57,994 nt of DNA from a virus, in IMG/VR virus record IMGVR_UViG_3300044971_003295, positions 1 to 57,994 of that record. One strand, written 5' to 3'. Positions 9,324 through 57,690 of this stretch are shown in pieces (position 1 is the first letter of the stretch; each line of letters opens with the position of its first letter). A model generated the notes under the pieces. The model was not told the origin of the DNA. It worked only from the letters and a program-made list of their open reading frames with translations, and did not search any database. A program made the translations under genes and the position numbers.

Positions 9324-9794
9324 TTAGATTATGTCTTCGCCTTTGAGTTTAGTTCTGGCTACTCCATAGTACAAAGGGTTAGCTGAGCTCAGGCCCATAG
9401 CTTTTGCAATCTTAGTGAGCGAGATACCTTTGTCTTCGTATTCGAAGCGAAGTGCTTCGTGATACTGGTCTGTCCCGTAAGTCTTGGCAGTTTGAATTCT
9501 TTCGACTGCTTCCTGAATTTCGGTTGGTGTTGCCTTGCTACGAGTTCTTTTAGCTGCTACTGGAATCTCGGCCATGATTACTCGGCGTCGAACTCCTGCG
9601 TATGTGACCTCAAGCTTCTTGGCTAGAGCCAACAGGCTACCGCCCTTCGAGTAGTACTCAACGAGAAGTTCCGTATAGGTCCTAGATGCGTCATGCTGAG
9701 GAGACTTGGTGTCTCTTGATCCGTATGCCTTTTTGGCTAGTGGCAGTACCGGAGCGATTTTCTCCGCGTACTCTTCTAGTAGTTCGTCTTTCAT
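9324..9794 (-). CDS. helix-turn-helix DNA-binding protein
   Basis: A 156-residue protein with two HTH-like segments: GGSLLALAKKLEVTYAGVRRRV near residue 52 and GISLTKIAKAMGLSSANPLYYG near residue 123, joined by a basic stretch (KRTRSKATPTE). It is the only minus-strand gene among plus-strand neighbours and diverges from the small basic gene at 9916, a common layout for a regulator. Target unknown. Confidence 0.65.
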   Translation of the reverse strand: MKDELLEEYAEKIAPVLPLAKKAYGSRDTKSPQHDASRTYTELLVEYYSKGGSLLALAKKLEVTYAGVRRRVIMAEIPVAAKRTRSKATPTEIQEAVERIQTAKTYGTDQYHEALRFEYEDKGISLTKIAKAMGLSSANPLYYGVARTKLKGEDII

Positions 9795-9915
9795 ATTTGC
9801 TCCTTAGTGCTGGAAGATATAACTCACTATAATCAGGTTAAATAATACTTGTCAAGTACTTTACAAAAGAATTATTTGTGTGTTAGCATGTTCAAATCTA
9901 AAGAAAGGAATGACC

Positions 9916-10047
9916 ATGGCAAAAGGTAAAGGCGGCGGTCCTGCCCCTAAAAAGGGTGGCAATGATGACCGCAACAACAAGAAGGCGTTTAAGAAGCGTC
10001 CGAAGATATTTGACGCAATCAAGCGTCGTCTAATCACTAAGTCATAG
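9916..10047 (+). CDS. small basic protein
   Basis: A 43-residue protein that is Lys/Arg rich (MAKGKGGGPAPKKGGNDDRN, later AFKKRPKIFDAIKRRL). An AGAAAGGA site sits ~5 nt before the ATG at 9916. A TTTACA / 17 nt / TTAGCA promoter is possible upstream. It may bind nucleic acid; no family recognised. Confidence 0.6.
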   Translation: MAKGKGGGPAPKKGGNDDRNNKKAFKKRPKIFDAIKRRLITKS

Positions 10048-10471: not shown

Positions 10472-10803
10472 GGGGATGACAGGTTTCGACTGGCATCTGA
10501 AGTTTGGTGAAGCAAGCCGAGATGGCGGAGTCTCGTAAAACCGCTAAAAGAAATAAATGCTGAATCACGTTCTGCATTCGCTCTAGCTGCTTAGTAGCAG
10601 TTAGAACCCCTAGAAAAGCACTAATCCTAAGTGGGCAGCTAGGCTTTAAATAAATAGGATAACCCGCACCACGTCCATGCTGGAGACGTAAAACTGTAGC
10701 ACCAGGAGATGTGGCAGTGCAGTCTCCGAAATATTCACTGCCTAAGCTTGTAGAAGAACAAATCGAATATGTTAGGACGCGGGTTCAATTCCCGCCATCT
10801 CCA
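10472..10803 (+). ncRNA. ssrA: transfer-messenger RNA (tmRNA)
   Basis: The ends pair as a tRNA-like acceptor (GGGGATG 10472-10478 with CATCTCC 10796-10802, discriminator A). The 3' part has a T arm (GCGGG TTCAATT CCCGC), and GACAGGTTTCGACTGG marks the 5' domain. The tag frame after CGTAAAA reads PLKEINAESRSAFALAA and then TAG TAG; the AFALAA end matches actinobacterial tags. tmRNA rescues stalled ribosomes and tags products for proteolysis. The 3' end is not followed by CCA. A TATAGA box lies 3 nt upstream of position 10472. Confidence 0.93.
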
Positions 10804-10804
10804 C

Positions 10805-11423: not shown

Positions 11424-11966
11424 ATGATTATTGGATTGTCAGGTTGGGCGCGTTCGGGTAAAGATACTGTTGCCAATCACCTTGTGGATAACTTTGGCTT
11501 TGTCAAGGTGTCCTTTGCAGAGCCTATGCGCGAGGCTTTAGTCCGCCTAAATCCTACGATTTCAATAAACGGGCTTCGCACGGAGCTTGCTTCTGCCGTT
11601 CGACTAATAGGCTGGGAGGACCTTAAATCCCAGAGCCCCGAAGTTCGTGGCCTCATGCAACGTTTCGGGACTGAAATTGGTCGAGAGATGTTTGGACAGG
11701 ACTTCTGGGTAAACCTAGCCCTGTCACGCGTGGAGCCTGGAGCGAACGTAGTTATCCCCGACTGTCGCTACCCTAACGAAGCCGACGCCATTAAGGCAAC
11801 CGGCGGTGTCGTGTGGAGAGTAGAACGTAACGGAGTTGGTCCAGCCAATGACCACGATTCAGAAAGAGCTCTAGACTCTTACAAGTTTGACCAGCGCCTA
11901 GCCAACTACGAAACTTTCGACGTCCTTAATGGATTAGTAGATGACTTGGTGGCTAGTGTCCTATAG
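11424..11966 (+). CDS. deoxynucleoside monophosphate kinase
   Basis: A 180-residue P-loop kinase. The Walker A motif GWARSGKDT is at residues 7-15. FGTEIGREMFGQDFWV and VIPDCRYPNEADAIK follow the phage dNMP kinase pattern, with an Asp-Arg substrate region. It phosphorylates dNMPs to feed DNA synthesis, together with the class II RNR and ThyX. Start ATG 11424 places the P-loop near the N-terminus as in the family; the upstream TTG start lacks a ribosome site. Confidence 0.85.
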   Translation: MIIGLSGWARSGKDTVANHLVDNFGFVKVSFAEPMREALVRLNPTISINGLRTELASAVRLIGWEDLKSQSPEVRGLMQRFGTEIGREMFGQDFWVNLALSRVEPGANVVIPDCRYPNEADAIKATGGVVWRVERNGVGPANDHDSERALDSYKFDQRLANYETFDVLNGLVDDLVASVL

Positions 11967-37420: not shown

Positions 37421-37427
37421 TAGAATT

Positions 37428-37503
37428 GGAGTGTCGGGTTTGCCCCCTCGTTTATCCCGACACTCCATAGCCAATCGGGTTTGCCCCCTCATTTACCGAT
37501 TGG
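37428..37503 (+). other. twin hairpins with identical loop
   Basis: GGAGTGTCGGG/CCCGACACTCC (37428-37466) and CCAATCGG/CCGATTGG (37471-37503) have unrelated stems but nearly the same loop, GTTTGCCCCCTCRTTTAY. Stem covariation with loop conservation marks a structured RNA, probably in the ssb 3' UTR. Confidence 0.6.
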
Positions 37504-45577: not shown

Positions 45578-45662
45578 TTGACTTTCACCGCTATCGGTGG
45601 CAAACTATAAATGTAGAGCGGCGGCCTTTCGTTCCCCCCCCCCTGATACCGCCGCTCTACAC
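45578..45662 (+). promoter_or_regulatory. cassette promoter and long 5' stem-loop
   Basis: TTGACT, 17 nt, CAAACT; spacer dyad CACCG/CGGTG. A 13-bp stem TGTAGAGCGGCGG/CCGCCGCTCTACA (45612-45662) starts at +1 and has a loop with a long C-run. Confidence 0.8.
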
Positions 45663-47165: not shown

Positions 47166-47198
47166 CCGCCGAGCATTAGACCCCCTAATGCTCGGCGG
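47166..47198 (+). terminator. 3' hairpin with C-rich loop
   Basis: CCGCCGAGCATTAG/CTAATGCTCGGCGG, 14 bp, loop ACCCC. Confidence 0.75.
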
Positions 47199-48573: not shown

Positions 48574-48716
48574 ACCCCGAACTCGCGAAAAAATTCGTAG
48601 CAATTCTCAATGCTTACGAAGACCGAGAGATTAGTGCCGAAGAAGCACTAATCCGTATCCAAATCGCCGTAGCCAACGCTAACGAAGATGCGGAACACAA
48701 CGAAATCACTCTCTAA
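48570..48716 (+). CDS. small helical acidic protein
   Basis: A 48-residue protein (MNPELAKKFVAILNAYEDRE...). GAAGGAGAAG lies upstream inside the preceding gene. Function unknown. Confidence 0.55.
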   Translation: MNPELAKKFVAILNAYEDREISAEEALIRIQIAVANANEDAEHNEITL

Positions 48717-48727
48717 CGCTGCCCGAA

Positions 48728-48749
48728 GCCCACACCGAAAGGTGTGGGC
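48728..48749 (+). terminator. 3' hairpin with GAAA loop
   Basis: GCCCACACC GAAA GGTGTGGGC. Confidence 0.75.
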
Positions 48750-48761
48750 CTTGGCGTTTGC

Positions 48762-48820
48762 GAAAAATAAAAAAAAATAAAATTTGCGGCTGCGCCGCAA
48801 AAATAAAAAATAAAACCAAA
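48762..48820. repeat. A-rich block with CTNCG palindrome
   Basis: TTTGCGGC/GCCGCAAA, loop TGC (48783-48801). Confidence 0.85.
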
Positions 48821-48854
48821 AGCTCATTTACAAAAGACACGCCGCTCCGCCCGT

Positions 48855-48935
48855 TTGACTTCCGTTGCCGTATGTGGCAAACTAGTATTGCCAGGCAGTA
48901 AGTAATCCCCCCCCTTTCGTTGCTTACTGCCTGGC
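48855..48935 (+). promoter_or_regulatory. cassette promoter and long 5' stem-loop
   Basis: TTGACT, 17 nt, CAAACT; spacer dyad TTGCC/GGCAA. 13-bp stem GCCAGGCAGTAAG/CTTACTGCCTGGC (48890-48935) with a C-run loop. Confidence 0.8.
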
Positions 48936-48952
48936 CTTATCTAAGGAGATAG

Positions 48953-49135
48953 ATGACCACCGCAACCACCGACAGAATAGAAATGTTGAGCCGAAACTTG
49001 GCCAGACACCAAATCATTATTTCGCTACTAAGCAAAAAACAGAAATGCGATGAAAGCGAAAAACCCTGCGACATTTGCTACGGATTTGATTTAGCAATCA
49101 AACTTGTCCAAGACCAACTAGAACCCGAGAATTAG
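48953..49135 (+). CDS. small protein with Cys pair
   Basis: A 60-residue helical protein (MTTATTDRIEMLSRNLARHQ...) with KCDESEKPCDICYGF. AAGGAGATAG upstream. Function unknown. Confidence 0.6.
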   Translation: MTTATTDRIEMLSRNLARHQIIISLLSKKQKCDESEKPCDICYGFDLAIKLVQDQLEPEN

Positions 49136-49143
49136 GAGAACCA

Positions 49144-49311
49144 ATGATACCTTGCGAAGTGTGCGGAAAGGACACCGCCGACACAGGCGAGCCTTGTGAT
49201 GAGTGTATGAACCCGTCATTCACCAAGCCAGACTTTGGCAGCAGACCTGCTGATGAGTATTTCGCCTACATAAAGAGCGACGCTTACATCGCCTATCTCA
49301 ACAGCAACTAG
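49144..49311 (+). CDS. small zinc-type protein
   Basis: A 55-residue protein with MIPCEVCGKDTADTGEPCDE and CM, a CxxC...CxxC finger. AGGAGAACC spans the previous stop. Confidence 0.6.
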   Translation: MIPCEVCGKDTADTGEPCDECMNPSFTKPDFGSRPADEYFAYIKSDAYIAYLNSN

Positions 49312-49321
49312 CACCGAGCCG

Positions 49322-49345
49322 CCCTGCCACTTTCGAGTGGCAGGG
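49322..49345 (+). terminator. 3' hairpin with TTCG loop
   Basis: CCCTGCCACT TTCG AGTGGCAGGG. Confidence 0.75.
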
Positions 49346-49360
49346 TTTCGGCTTTGCGGA

Positions 49361-49428
49361 AAATAAAAATTGCTGCTCCGCAGCAAAAATAAAATTTGCT
49401 GCTCCGCAGCAAAAATAAAAATCTAAAA
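49361..49428. repeat. A-rich block with two CTNCG palindromes
   Basis: TTGCTGC/GCAGCAA (49370-49386) and TTTGCTGC/GCAGCAAA (49395-49413), loops TCC. Confidence 0.85.
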
Positions 49429-49462
49429 GCTCATTTATAAAAGACACGCGCCGCTCGGTCGT

Positions 49463-49491
49463 TTGACTAAGTGCCGTAATTGTGAAAGACT
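49463..49491 (+). promoter_or_regulatory. cassette promoter
   Basis: TTGACT, 17 nt, AAGACT. Confidence 0.7.
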
Positions 49492-49497
49492 ATTCTT

Positions 49498-49711
49498 GGA
49501 CCCAAACGCTGGCTGGTAAAGGCTATGGGCGTTGGCTATGGCGGTCATAGCAATCGGCTTACCAGAGCCGACACAAGATAGCGGAGAGAGTGAATAAAAT
49601 ACCGCTCGCGACCTTAGGCAGTTGCTACCGATTACAAGCCTATAACTGCGTAAGGTGCTAGGGAGAGCAACCCCCTAGCACCGAACTCCAACCCAACAAC
49701 AAGGAGATACA
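49498..49711 (+). ncRNA. long structured leader RNA
   Basis: A 214-nt non-coding leader, against 20-100 nt in other cassettes. Pairings: CTGGTAA/TTACCAG (49513-49519, 49559-49565), GCTATG/CATAGC (49535-49551), AGCGG/CCGCT (49580-49606), ACCTTA.GCAGTT/AACTGC.TAAGGT (49611-49656) and GGTGCTAGGG/CCCTAGCACC (49654-49682). The last two compete for GGT at 49654-49656. CGGCT/AGCCG (49555-49570) competes with the first. Riboswitch-like or sRNA; ligand unknown. Confidence 0.55.
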
Positions 49712-49954
49712 ATGCCAGAAACACAAATACTCGCAAGGTATGAAGAAGACGGGCTTGCCTGTGAGATTACTTGCGAAAACGGAGAGTATTGGTTTGTAGA
49801 TACTTACCGCACCACCGAAGATAACGAGATGGTATGGCTCAACAATACCGGCTCGCTTACCACCTACGCCGAAGCGTTCGACGCCTTCCGTCTAGACCTA
49901 GACTGCTTCTTCGGCAAGGAGTTTCACCCAACAATGCTAGTCCGCAACAAGTAG
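49712..49954 (+). CDS. small hypothetical protein
   Basis: An 80-residue protein (MPETQILARYEEDGLACEIT...). AAGGAGATAC upstream. Its expression may be controlled by the structured leader. Function unknown. Confidence 0.65.
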   Translation: MPETQILARYEEDGLACEITCENGEYWFVDTYRTTEDNEMVWLNNTGSLTTYAEAFDAFRLDLDCFFGKEFHPTMLVRNK

Positions 49955-49960
49955 CAACCA

Positions 49961-49990
49961 CCGACCCCTGCCGAAAGGCAGGGTGTTCGG
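49961..49990 (+). terminator. 3' hairpin with GAAA loop
   Basis: CCCTGCC GAAA GGCAGGG with outer CCGA/TCGG. Confidence 0.75.
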
Positions 49991-49995
49991 CGTTT

Positions 49996-50050
49996 CAAAT
50001 AAAAAATTTGCGGCTGCGCCGCAAAAAATAAAAAGCGGCTACGCCGCAAA
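49996..50050. repeat. A-rich block with two CTNCG palindromes
   Basis: TTTGCGGC/GCCGCAAA, loop TGC (50007-50025); GCGGC/GCCGC, loop TAC (50035-50047). Confidence 0.85.
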
Positions 50051-50090
50051 ATCAAAAGCTCATTTACAAAAGACACGCCGCTCCCCCGAT

Positions 50091-50119
50091 TTGCGAAGTG
50101 TGCCAAATTATGTAATGAT
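50091..50119 (+). promoter_or_regulatory. cassette promoter
   Basis: TTGCGA, 17 nt, AATGAT. No clear 5' stem. Confidence 0.65.
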
Positions 50120-50153
50120 TAGATGGGGAACTATCAAAAACAAGGAGAACCTG

Positions 50154-50420
50154 ATGAACAATCAACCACTCAGCGCCACAATCAACAAAGCCCGAGCAAT
50201 CACTTATGTTGCCAGCAACAACCCTGATGCCTTCACCACCGCTCAACTAATCCAGATTATCAAATACGCTAACGCTGTCCTTCACACCACCAGCATAGCC
50301 TTATACCCAGACGGCTTGCCGAAAACGCCTGCTGATGTGAAAGACCAACTAGAGTCAGTAATTGCCAGAGAAGTAGCAATCTTTGAGAGAGAAGTTAGAG
50401 CAACTCTGCCTAAATTCTAA
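50154..50420 (+). CDS. small helical protein
   Basis: An 88-residue protein from ATG 50154 (AAGGAGAACC upstream): MNNQPLSATINKARAITYVA..., helical and mildly basic. Function unknown. Confidence 0.65.
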   Translation: MNNQPLSATINKARAITYVASNNPDAFTTAQLIQIIKYANAVLHTTSIALYPDGLPKTPADVKDQLESVIAREVAIFEREVRATLPKF

Positions 50421-50422
50421 CC

Positions 50423-50464
50423 CCGAACTGCCCTGCCTAGTCCCCCCACTAGGCAGGGTTTCGG
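50423..50464 (+). terminator. 3' hairpin with six-C loop
   Basis: CCCTGCCTAGT/ACTAGGCAGGG, loop CCCCCC, with outer CCGAA/TTCGG. Confidence 0.8.
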
Positions 50465-51935: not shown

Positions 51936-52020
51936 TTGCGTTTGTCTGCCGTCTATGGCAGACTTAGACCATAACAGAATACCTAGCAGGGTAGGCAACC
52001 CCCCCGCCTGCCCTGCTAGG
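51936..52020 (+). promoter_or_regulatory. cassette promoter with spacer dyad and 5' stem-loop
   Basis: TTGCGT, 17 nt, CAGACT; dyad GTCTGCC/GGCAGAC. CCTAGCAGGG/CCCTGCTAGG with inner AGGC/GCCT and a C-run loop at 51982-52020. Confidence 0.75.
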
Positions 52021-52812: not shown

Positions 52813-52850
52813 ACTTGCCTAGTATCTACCCCCCTAGATACTAGGCAAGT
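52813..52850 (+). terminator. 3' hairpin with six-C loop
   Basis: ACTTGCCTAGTATCTA/TAGATACTAGGCAAGT, 16 bp, loop CCCCCC. Confidence 0.85.
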
Positions 52851-53170: not shown

Positions 53171-53211
53171 ACTCACCGAGTATCTACCCCCCCCCCAGAT
53201 ACTCGGTGAGT
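53171..53211 (+). terminator. 3' hairpin with ten-C loop
   Basis: ACTCACCGAGTATCT/AGATACTCGGTGAGT, 15 bp, loop A plus ten C. Confidence 0.85.
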
Positions 53212-56036: not shown

Positions 56037-57449
56037 ATGGCTAAAAGTTTAATGGAGACCATATCTCTCCTCCCCCCTGAAGAACAGGCGCTGGCACTTG
56101 CCGGTATGGATCCCGATGCATTGCTGTGGGATTGGTCAGTATGGGGTAGACCCGAACAACAGGCACCTGCCGGTGACGACTGGGCTATCTGGGCATACAT
56201 TGCCGGACGTGGTGCAGGTAAAACCAGGACAGCTGCTGAGTGGGTCCGAGAGCAGGCTAAGTATACGACTGAAGGTCAGAGGCGCTTTGCCCTGGTTGCC
56301 CGTACTGCTGCCGACGTACGTGACGTCATCGTCGAAGGTGAATCCGGGATCATGAATGTGACCCCTCCATCTGAACGTCCACTCTACGAACCTTCAAAGC
56401 GAAGGCTGACTTGGCCAAACGGTAATACCGCGACATGCTTCACAGCCGATGAGCCCGACTCACTACGTGGTCCTCAGTTCAGTCATGCATGGGGCGATGA
56501 GGTTGCCGCCTGGAGACAAACTCCAGATGCCGCAGGTATGACAGCTTTCGATAACCTTCGTGTTGGAACCCGTCTTGGAGCTAACCCAAAGATCATGGTC
56601 ACCACCACGCCTAAGCGGGTGCCTCTGCTTTATAAGCTCATCGAGGAAGCTAAGACTGGCCGTGTCGTTATTACCAGGGGATCGACCCTGGACAATTCGG
56701 GTAACCTATCCGGTGCCTACCTCGATGCCATCACTGGTGTCTATGCCGGGACTCGCCTAGCCGCTCAGGAACTGTATGGTGAGATGCTTGACGATGTTGA
56801 AGGCGCACTTTGGACTGAAGAAATGCTTGAAGCCGGTCGTGAAGGCTACATGCCACTAGGTACACCACTGCGCATCATTGGCGTTGACCCCAGCGTTGCC
56901 GAGAACCCTCGAGATGAATGTGGGATTGTTGTTTGCGCTTCGACATCTGATCGAGACCTTTATAAGCGTCAAGCCTGGGTCCTCGAAGATGCTTCAGTCT
57001 TAGGCTCGCCGGATAAGTGGGCTAATAAGGTTGTTGAGATGGCTCGCAAATGGGGATGCCCTGTCGTTGCCGAAGTGAACCAGGGTGGAGCCTTAGTTCG
57101 CAATGCCATTAATGCCATTGACCCCAACATCACAGTTCTTGAGGTCCACTCGAAACACGGTAAGGCTTTACGTGCCGAGCCTGTAACTCTAGCCTATGAA
57201 CAACGTCGTGTTCACCACATAGGCTACCTGGCTGATCTCGAAAGCCAGATGACTTCGTGGGTTCCAGGTGAAGGTAAGTCTCCAGACCGCGTTGACGCTC
57301 TAGTTCACGCCCTCACAGCCTTACTTATCAAGCCTCCATCAGGATTTACAGGTGGGCGCATCAGTGCTAAGTCTATGGCAGATAGAAAACTAGATTTAGG
57401 CAGGGGCACAGGCACAGGGCGCTCTGGAGGCATTTTCAGGGTAAGATAA
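56037..57449 (+). CDS. terL: terminase large subunit
   Basis: A 470-residue packaging motor. Walker A AGRGAGKT at 56-63; Walker B HAWGDEVAAW near 150; the coupling region VTTTPKRVPLL; nuclease-domain Asp in IGVDPSVAENPRDECG near 281 and DRVDALVHAL near 420. It cuts and translocates phage DNA into proheads. The 3' end of the gene is duplicated 122 bp downstream. Confidence 0.93.
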   Translation: MAKSLMETISLLPPEEQALALAGMDPDALLWDWSVWGRPEQQAPAGDDWAIWAYIAGRGAGKTRTAAEWVREQAKYTTEGQRRFALVARTAADVRDVIVEGESGIMNVTPPSERPLYEPSKRRLTWPNGNTATCFTADEPDSLRGPQFSHAWGDEVAAWRQTPDAAGMTAFDNLRVGTRLGANPKIMVTTTPKRVPLLYKLIEEAKTGRVVITRGSTLDNSGNLSGAYLDAITGVYAGTRLAAQELYGEMLDDVEGALWTEEMLEAGREGYMPLGTPLRIIGVDPSVAENPRDECGIVVCASTSDRDLYKRQAWVLEDASVLGSPDKWANKVVEMARKWGCPVVAEVNQGGALVRNAINAIDPNITVLEVHSKHGKALRAEPVTLAYEQRRVHHIGYLADLESQMTSWVPGEGKSPDRVDALVHALTALLIKPPSGFTGGRISAKSMADRKLDLGRGTGTGRSGGIFRVR

Positions 57450-57635
57450 GGCAAAATAGGGCTTTCTGGCGTCGAAGGGCGGAGTTGAACCTCAATAATA
57501 TTGATCCTATTTGATTATTAGGCAGGGGCACAGGCACAGGGCGCTCTGGAGGCATTTTCAGGGTAAGATAAGGCAAAATAGGCGTTTTTGGGGTCAATAG
57601 GCGGAGTTGAACCTTATTAGTATTGCCTTTATTCA
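57396..57635 (+). repeat. 122-bp tandem duplication at the terminase 3' end
   Basis: A 65-bp block (57396-57460), including the last ~18 terminase codons and stop, is repeated exactly at 57518-57582. The following ~57 bp are partly conserved (GGCGGAGTTGAACC in both). No gene in the second copy. Confidence 0.85.
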
Positions 57636-57690
57636 ATCAGCAGGGCAGGGCAGGGTAAAGCAAAACCCCTGCCTATTGGCAGGGGCTTCG
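57636..57690. terminator. terminator and short repeats
   Basis: GGCAGGGCAGGGCAGGG repeats are followed by CCCCTGCC TATT GGCAGGGG, between convergent genes. Confidence 0.7.

Follow-up and report, generated by a model that had tools for sequence, protein, structure and literature searches.

A long leader upstream of a small gene in an actinophage, and the hairpin-first cassettes that surround it

In a region of small gene cassettes, one gene of the phage record described here is preceded by a leader that is 214 nt long and rich in potential stems. The question raised by this locus is what such a leader is: a switch controlling the gene downstream, a host for an RNA with a function of its own, a mere spacer, or a product of exchanges between cassettes. 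The last of these readings, in which the promoter, an orphan RNA segment and the usual hairpin of the cassette were brought together by recombination, is the one favored below, with an even chance of being correct.

The phage and its small cassettes

The window, i.e. the whole stretch of DNA that was analyzed, comprises the 57,994 bases of a virus record (IMG/VR record IMGVR_UViG_3300044971_003295). The terminase encoded in it shares 77.5% identity with that of the Actinomycetia phage DSL-LC01, the source of which is a lake. A tmRNA and two tRNAs are encoded in the window, the tmRNA gene being located at 10472-10804 and specifying the tag AESRSAFALAA; the closest relative has a tmRNA gene too. 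At the end of the terminase frame and beyond (57396-57639) lie two tandem 122-nt copies that are 86% identical.

Small cassettes make up the window from ~40.6 to 53.2 kb. Their parts are A-rich palindromes, a promoter, a leader, one small gene and a terminator-like hairpin, and their promoters are TTGAC/TTGCG-N17-AAACT-like. Between 48783 and 50542, the palindromes of the A-rich spacers score as minus-strand terminators, the genes there being on the plus strand. A 28-nt element harboring an inverted repeat, ACCTGAGCAAGT...AAACTGCTCAC, is present in seven copies in the window (41384, 42327, 42736, 44642, 46299, 47806 and 51148).

The gene that follows the focal leader encodes an 80 amino-acid protein to which no Pfam or PHROG family was matched. 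Its predicted fold comprises four strands and a helix (pLDDT 81.6). A search with this fold returned one uncharacterised phage protein (E 2e-5) and no significant match in the PDB. A PC4-like identity was considered, for which the PDB matches are weak, and it is not claimed.

The cassette promoter, termed P1, was scored with a matrix trained on 16 other cassette promoters, P1 itself being left out, and its 20.9 bits place it tied ninth on the plus strand of the window (Table 1). The focal leader runs from the predicted start downstream of this promoter (position 49463) to the gene at 49712. The preliminary description held that only this cassette has a long leader, which is borne out: with its 214 nt, it is the only one of the 18 scored window promoters (1/18) with a leader longer than 77 nt, the length of the next.

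Table 1. Features of the focal cassette and C-rich-loop hairpins of other cassettes (window coordinates).
Feature	Position	Strand	Remarks
Cassette promoter P1, TTGACT-N17-AAGACT	49463..49491	+	20.9 bits; start predicted at about 49497-49499
Inserted RNA segment X	49498..49589	+	Absent from the ortholog leader and from the ortholog's whole record; z -1.5
Three-way junction of X, predicted	~49505-49585	+	Hairpins 49522-49551 and 49554-49571
Promoter-like stretch, probably a decayed older promoter	49590..49649	+	Alignment score reached by 1.2% of random 60-mers
Putative 23-codon frame beginning with GTG	49590..49661	+	Stop inside the hairpin
ACCTTA/TAAGGT stem with inner CAGTT/AACTG stem	49611..49656	+	Outer-stem pair probabilities 0.46-0.90
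10-bp hairpin with C-rich loop	49654..49682	+	Inner seven pairs 0.99; counterpart of the ortholog's +1 hairpin
Ribosome site AAGGAG	49701..49706	+	From the sequence; pairing of GGAG the same whichever helix is forced
Small gene, 80 aa	49712..49954	+	86% identical ortholog; model pLDDT 81.6
C-rich-loop hairpin, start of another cassette transcript	45612..45661	+
C-rich-loop hairpin, start of another cassette transcript	48890..48935	+
C-rich-loop hairpin near another cassette's start	51982..52020	+	Ortholog hairpin: stem changed, still complementary

Hairpins at the start of the cassette transcripts

In 12 of 17 window cassettes, a helix of at least 4 bp begins within the first four bases of the predicted transcript, where shuffles would give 4.0 such cassettes (P 2.5e-5). 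The five others have no +1 helix, and the focal leader owes its place in the group of 12 solely to a weak 4-bp helix, such as 39% of shuffles have. The same holds among relatives: 46/64 distinct leaders start with a helix of the same minimum length, here beginning within the first five bases, versus 16.4 expected (P 1e-16), a value which, like the previous one, takes related leaders as independent and is thus too small. These 64 leaders originate from 40 fetched stretches and were retained at a matrix score of at least 17 and a leader length of at most 140 nt. The relatives' stretches in the survey bear the labels L190-L219, and the part of the window surveyed is 40.6-53.2 kb.

The stems of the cassettes vary in sequence and their complementarity is kept, which speaks for a structure in the RNA rather than for a DNA site common to the cassettes. 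Long perfect hairpins with C runs in the loop are found, besides the three that are listed in Table 1 for other cassettes, at 37427-37467, 47166-47198, 50431-50458, 52813-52850 and 53171-53211; they occur in leaders as well as after genes, and the opposite strand gave none. In the focal leader, the hairpin lies about as far from the ATG as it does in other leaders with a C-rich loop.

Stem-loops that stabilise a transcript from its 5′ terminus are exemplified by papA and ompA. Most cassettes resemble these, and B. subtilis mRNAs of the same kind, in carrying a hairpin on or close to the predicted first base of the transcript. The phage differs from them in using such hairpins across many small cassettes, often with a C-rich loop. 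A further difference is that the conserved hairpin of the focal leader is located ~157 nt from the predicted start, and is therefore not itself 5′-terminal in the focal transcript. By analogy with the 5′ hairpins described in E. coli and B. subtilis as stabilisers of mRNA (PMC3997798), the cassette hairpins probably protect mRNA 5′ ends. A literature search near hairpin-first leaders had mRNA-decay reviews among its matches and another gave no paper; absence of such leaders from print is not claimed. This hairpin-first architecture has better support, and is more general, than the composite reading of the focal leader.

Composition of the focal leader

A sole related locus was found for the 80 amino-acid protein, in record 3300028025_005184, where the ortholog is 86% identical and the terminase is 99% identical to that of the window. 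The leader of this ortholog is 56 nt long, directly follows its own strong promoter and forms a single hairpin of 15 bp, the loop of which is C-rich. The sequence GTAAGGTG is common to both leaders; the stem then differs, and is again complementary. The ~150 nt upstream of the hairpin in the window are absent from the whole record of the ortholog. As there is a single ortholog, insertion in the window and loss in the relative both fit.

The whole leader has a low folding energy (z -2.9), mostly because of its segment 49654-49711 (z -6.2, with 0/500 shuffles as low). The energy of the first 156 nt, 49498-49653, is ordinary (z -0.74), since 46/200 shuffles fold as well. Segment X, 49498-49589, has a z of -1.5, and 49505-49585, a sub-part chosen after the fact, a z of -2.5 (10/500 shuffles). 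If Watson-Crick helices that are perfect and at least 6 bp long are counted, the leader harbors 10 versus 2.9 (sd 1.7) in 500 shuffles, 0.2% of which reach 10; among 600 random 214-mers from the same palindrome-rich genome, 1.8% also do. In X, there are 4 possible helices versus 0.5 in shuffles.

The stretch between X and the hairpin, 49590-49649, resembles cassette promoter regions, in the register that the ortholog would predict. The cassette matrix recognizes no promoter in it; its mean alignment to 16 promoter stretches gives a score that is reached by 1.2% of 1368 random 60-mers. Compared with the ortholog, the nearest 30 nt and the nearest 50 nt match no better than chance (p 0.50 and 0.31, respectively), and longer stretches give p values of 0.0005-0.034. 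Judged from this resemblance, and with reserve, it is probably a decayed older promoter. A working second promoter before the hairpin, with TATAAC at 49641, was also considered, for which the cassette matrix gives nothing.

Several pieces of evidence thus suggest that the leader may be a composite resulting from cassette recombination, made of P1, an orphan RNA of ~90-150 nt and the usual hairpin of the cassette. Computation shows the observations on which this reading is built: the absence of the 5′ part in the ortholog; the strength of P1; the existence of the hairpin-first class; and a segment X for which no homologue was found. Searching 92 related phage records whole (selected by the author from the contigs to which the loci belong, with longer ones predominating) gave no homologue of X, and 394 actinobacterial genomes gave only short matches, an empty result which proves little without a positive genome, and very near records may be missing. 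Short matches were also all that was obtained from one Actinotalea genome, from similarity searches of phage records and from exact patterns in viral contigs; those viewed in context look chance-like and are mostly in coding sequence. A covariance model built from the single leader matched only itself in 100 sources, and peptide fragments in all six frames matched only themselves among 179 loci.

The relatives provide a precedent for an RNA at this position. In the related locus L029, a promoter of the cassette type stands before a manA RNA (RF01745, 62.2 bits, 9742-9919), after which comes the ortholog of window gene 50927, and in L030 a divergent manA copy occupies the same promoter-leader slot. 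The manA leader of L029 ends in one more copy of the 28-nt repeated element mentioned above. Matches to manA with E below 1e-11 are found in 13 of 49 related records, with 6 above the cut-off, and at the cut-off in 0/14 control genomes. In L230-L242, the RNA is located at 1501 to about 1685. By eye, it adjoins tRNA-gene-like sequences in L231-L233 and L235, and a terminator-like hairpin directly follows it in L230 and L237. Such neighborhoods are easier to reconcile with an RNA that stands alone than with a cis-regulator, and cast doubt on the cis-regulatory label of manA.

The focal leader is at the equivalent position, but neither its sequence nor its fold matches manA: there is no RF01745 match at E 10 in the window, nor in 48700-50200, and a model from nine relatives' manA copies scores at best -2.2 bits on the plus strand. 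The wcaG RNA (RF01761) is not among the matches to the leader region up to E 10. Two other long leaders of relatives, of 116 nt (L194, 6117-6232, plus strand) and 118 nt (L195, minus strand, promoter at 11566), are strongly folded (z -3.5 and -3.0, respectively), and we know of no family for either. When six leaders were compared with the focal one, none was alike beyond chance (best p 0.135).

The presence of manA in the slot of L029 and L030 makes a passenger RNA in the focal leader plausible, and lends weight to the suggestion, made in the preliminary description, of an independent phage RNA. X, taken as 49498-49589 or to 49653, would in that case be a structured RNA with its own job, produced from P1 and either processed out or kept within the mRNA. 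The strongly folded leaders of the relatives and the helix excess in X agree with it. However, X is neither manA nor a member of any Rfam family, no homologue of it was found, and the folding energy of 49498-49589 is unremarkable; we consider this possible but unlikely. That X is a non-functional spacer, i.e. recombination debris in a leader of which only the promoter and the ribosome site matter, is doubtful: X is a singleton sequence, absent in the ortholog, and lies in the part with ordinary energy, but the leader has an excess of helices, phage intergenic space is small, and the other leaders are short. A broader proposal, which we deem rather improbable, is that 49498-49589 (perhaps to 49653) represents a new phage RNA class in an exchangeable promoter-leader slot of freshwater actinophage cassettes, which relatives would fill with manA and with other strongly folded leaders, and at which structured RNAs in general would land.

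Pairing alternatives and a proposed history

All the stem halves named in the preliminary description were found at their positions: CTGGTAA at 49513 and TTACCAG at 49559; CGGCT at 49555 and AGCCG at 49566; ACCTTA at 49611 and TAAGGT at 49651; TAGGC at 49615 and GCCTA at 49638; and the halves of the last hairpin, GGTGCTAGGG at 49654 and CCCTAGCACC at 49673. These stems had been proposed to be mutually exclusive, with the logic of a riboswitch or of a regulated leader. Alternative pairings do exceed chance, as the leader contains 29 conflicting helix pairs versus 9.1 expected, a number reached by 1.3% of 300 shuffles. Taken individually, the alternatives are less clear-cut. The last two stems share bases as described, but their exclusivity is weak, with only three base pairs contested: ACCTTA/TAAGGT and the last hairpin are 0.6 kcal/mol apart, and the partition function gives 0.39-0.51 for the outer three pairs of this hairpin and 0.99 for the inner seven. 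CGGCT/AGCCG and CTGGTAA/TTACCAG overlap, but by a single common base, 49559; the probability of the former is 0.98, that of the latter, which is 3.9 kcal/mol worse, 0.001. Since TTACCAG otherwise fills the six-base loop of the CGGCT/AGCCG hairpin, both could coexist as a loop contact, outside the reach of nested programs. The TAGGC/GCCTA alternative has its two halves in place, but a pairing probability of 0.04.

Forcing five helices in turn hardly alters the predicted pairing of the ribosome site, its GGAG being unpaired at most 0.09 everywhere. The pairing of the AUG changes little across the forced states, most with CTGGTAA/TTACCAG, the forcing of which costs 7.3 kcal/mol in a longer stretch. 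The terminator scan reveals no plus-strand intrinsic terminator in the leader. The hairpin at 49654-49682 was considered as a candidate: it is followed by GAACTCC, without a run of U, and is missing from the scan list. With an unchanged ribosome site under forcing and no terminator, the supposed switch has no modelled output. Rfam searches at gathering level and at E 10 gave no leader match worth the name, so that no known aptamer is at hand, nor are there homologues to judge the conservation of a new one.

The focal leader does resemble riboswitches and phage translational operators, of which T4 gene 43 is given as an example (PMC3014915), in being a structured 5′ leader of a phage gene. It differs from them in having no recognised aptamer or operator and, in the model, no state-dependent access to the ribosome site; the computed folds do not include two states that alter this access or termination. 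The excess of conflicting pairings notwithstanding, the core of the hairpin and the ribosome site remain the same in all forced states, and the closest ortholog is devoid of the 5′ part of the leader, so that a riboswitch or thermosensor-like regulated leader is highly improbable. Control by a leader peptide, in which the 23-codon frame would be translated and ribosomes entering the hairpin would affect expression, is hardly credible: the frame ends inside the hairpin and GGAG stands just before its GTG, but merely 3 nt from it, no homologue of the peptide was found in 179 loci, and there is no terminator to attenuate.

Returning to a leader assembled by cassette recombination, its history may be pictured as follows. 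The early genes of this lineage would be organized as small cassettes, in which a promoter is followed by a hairpin on or close to the first transcribed base, then by a ribosome site, the gene and a terminator. The 80 amino-acid gene probably once had a short hairpin leader, as its ortholog still has. It now stands behind P1 and ~150 nt of other sequence, the older promoter having probably decayed since, if the order of events is as we infer. The transcript would begin with the orphan RNA X, from the predicted start, and close with the ordinary hairpin and the ribosome site. By analogy with known 5′ stem-loop stabilisers, the hairpin most likely slows mRNA decay, and X may be either a folded 5′ part able to do the same job or a passenger.

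If true, this would mean that most early transcripts of the lineage start with a hairpin, and that whole structured RNAs, manA included, slot between a standard promoter and a gene. The cassettes would then offer a simple test bed for the roles of 5′ hairpins in actinobacteria.
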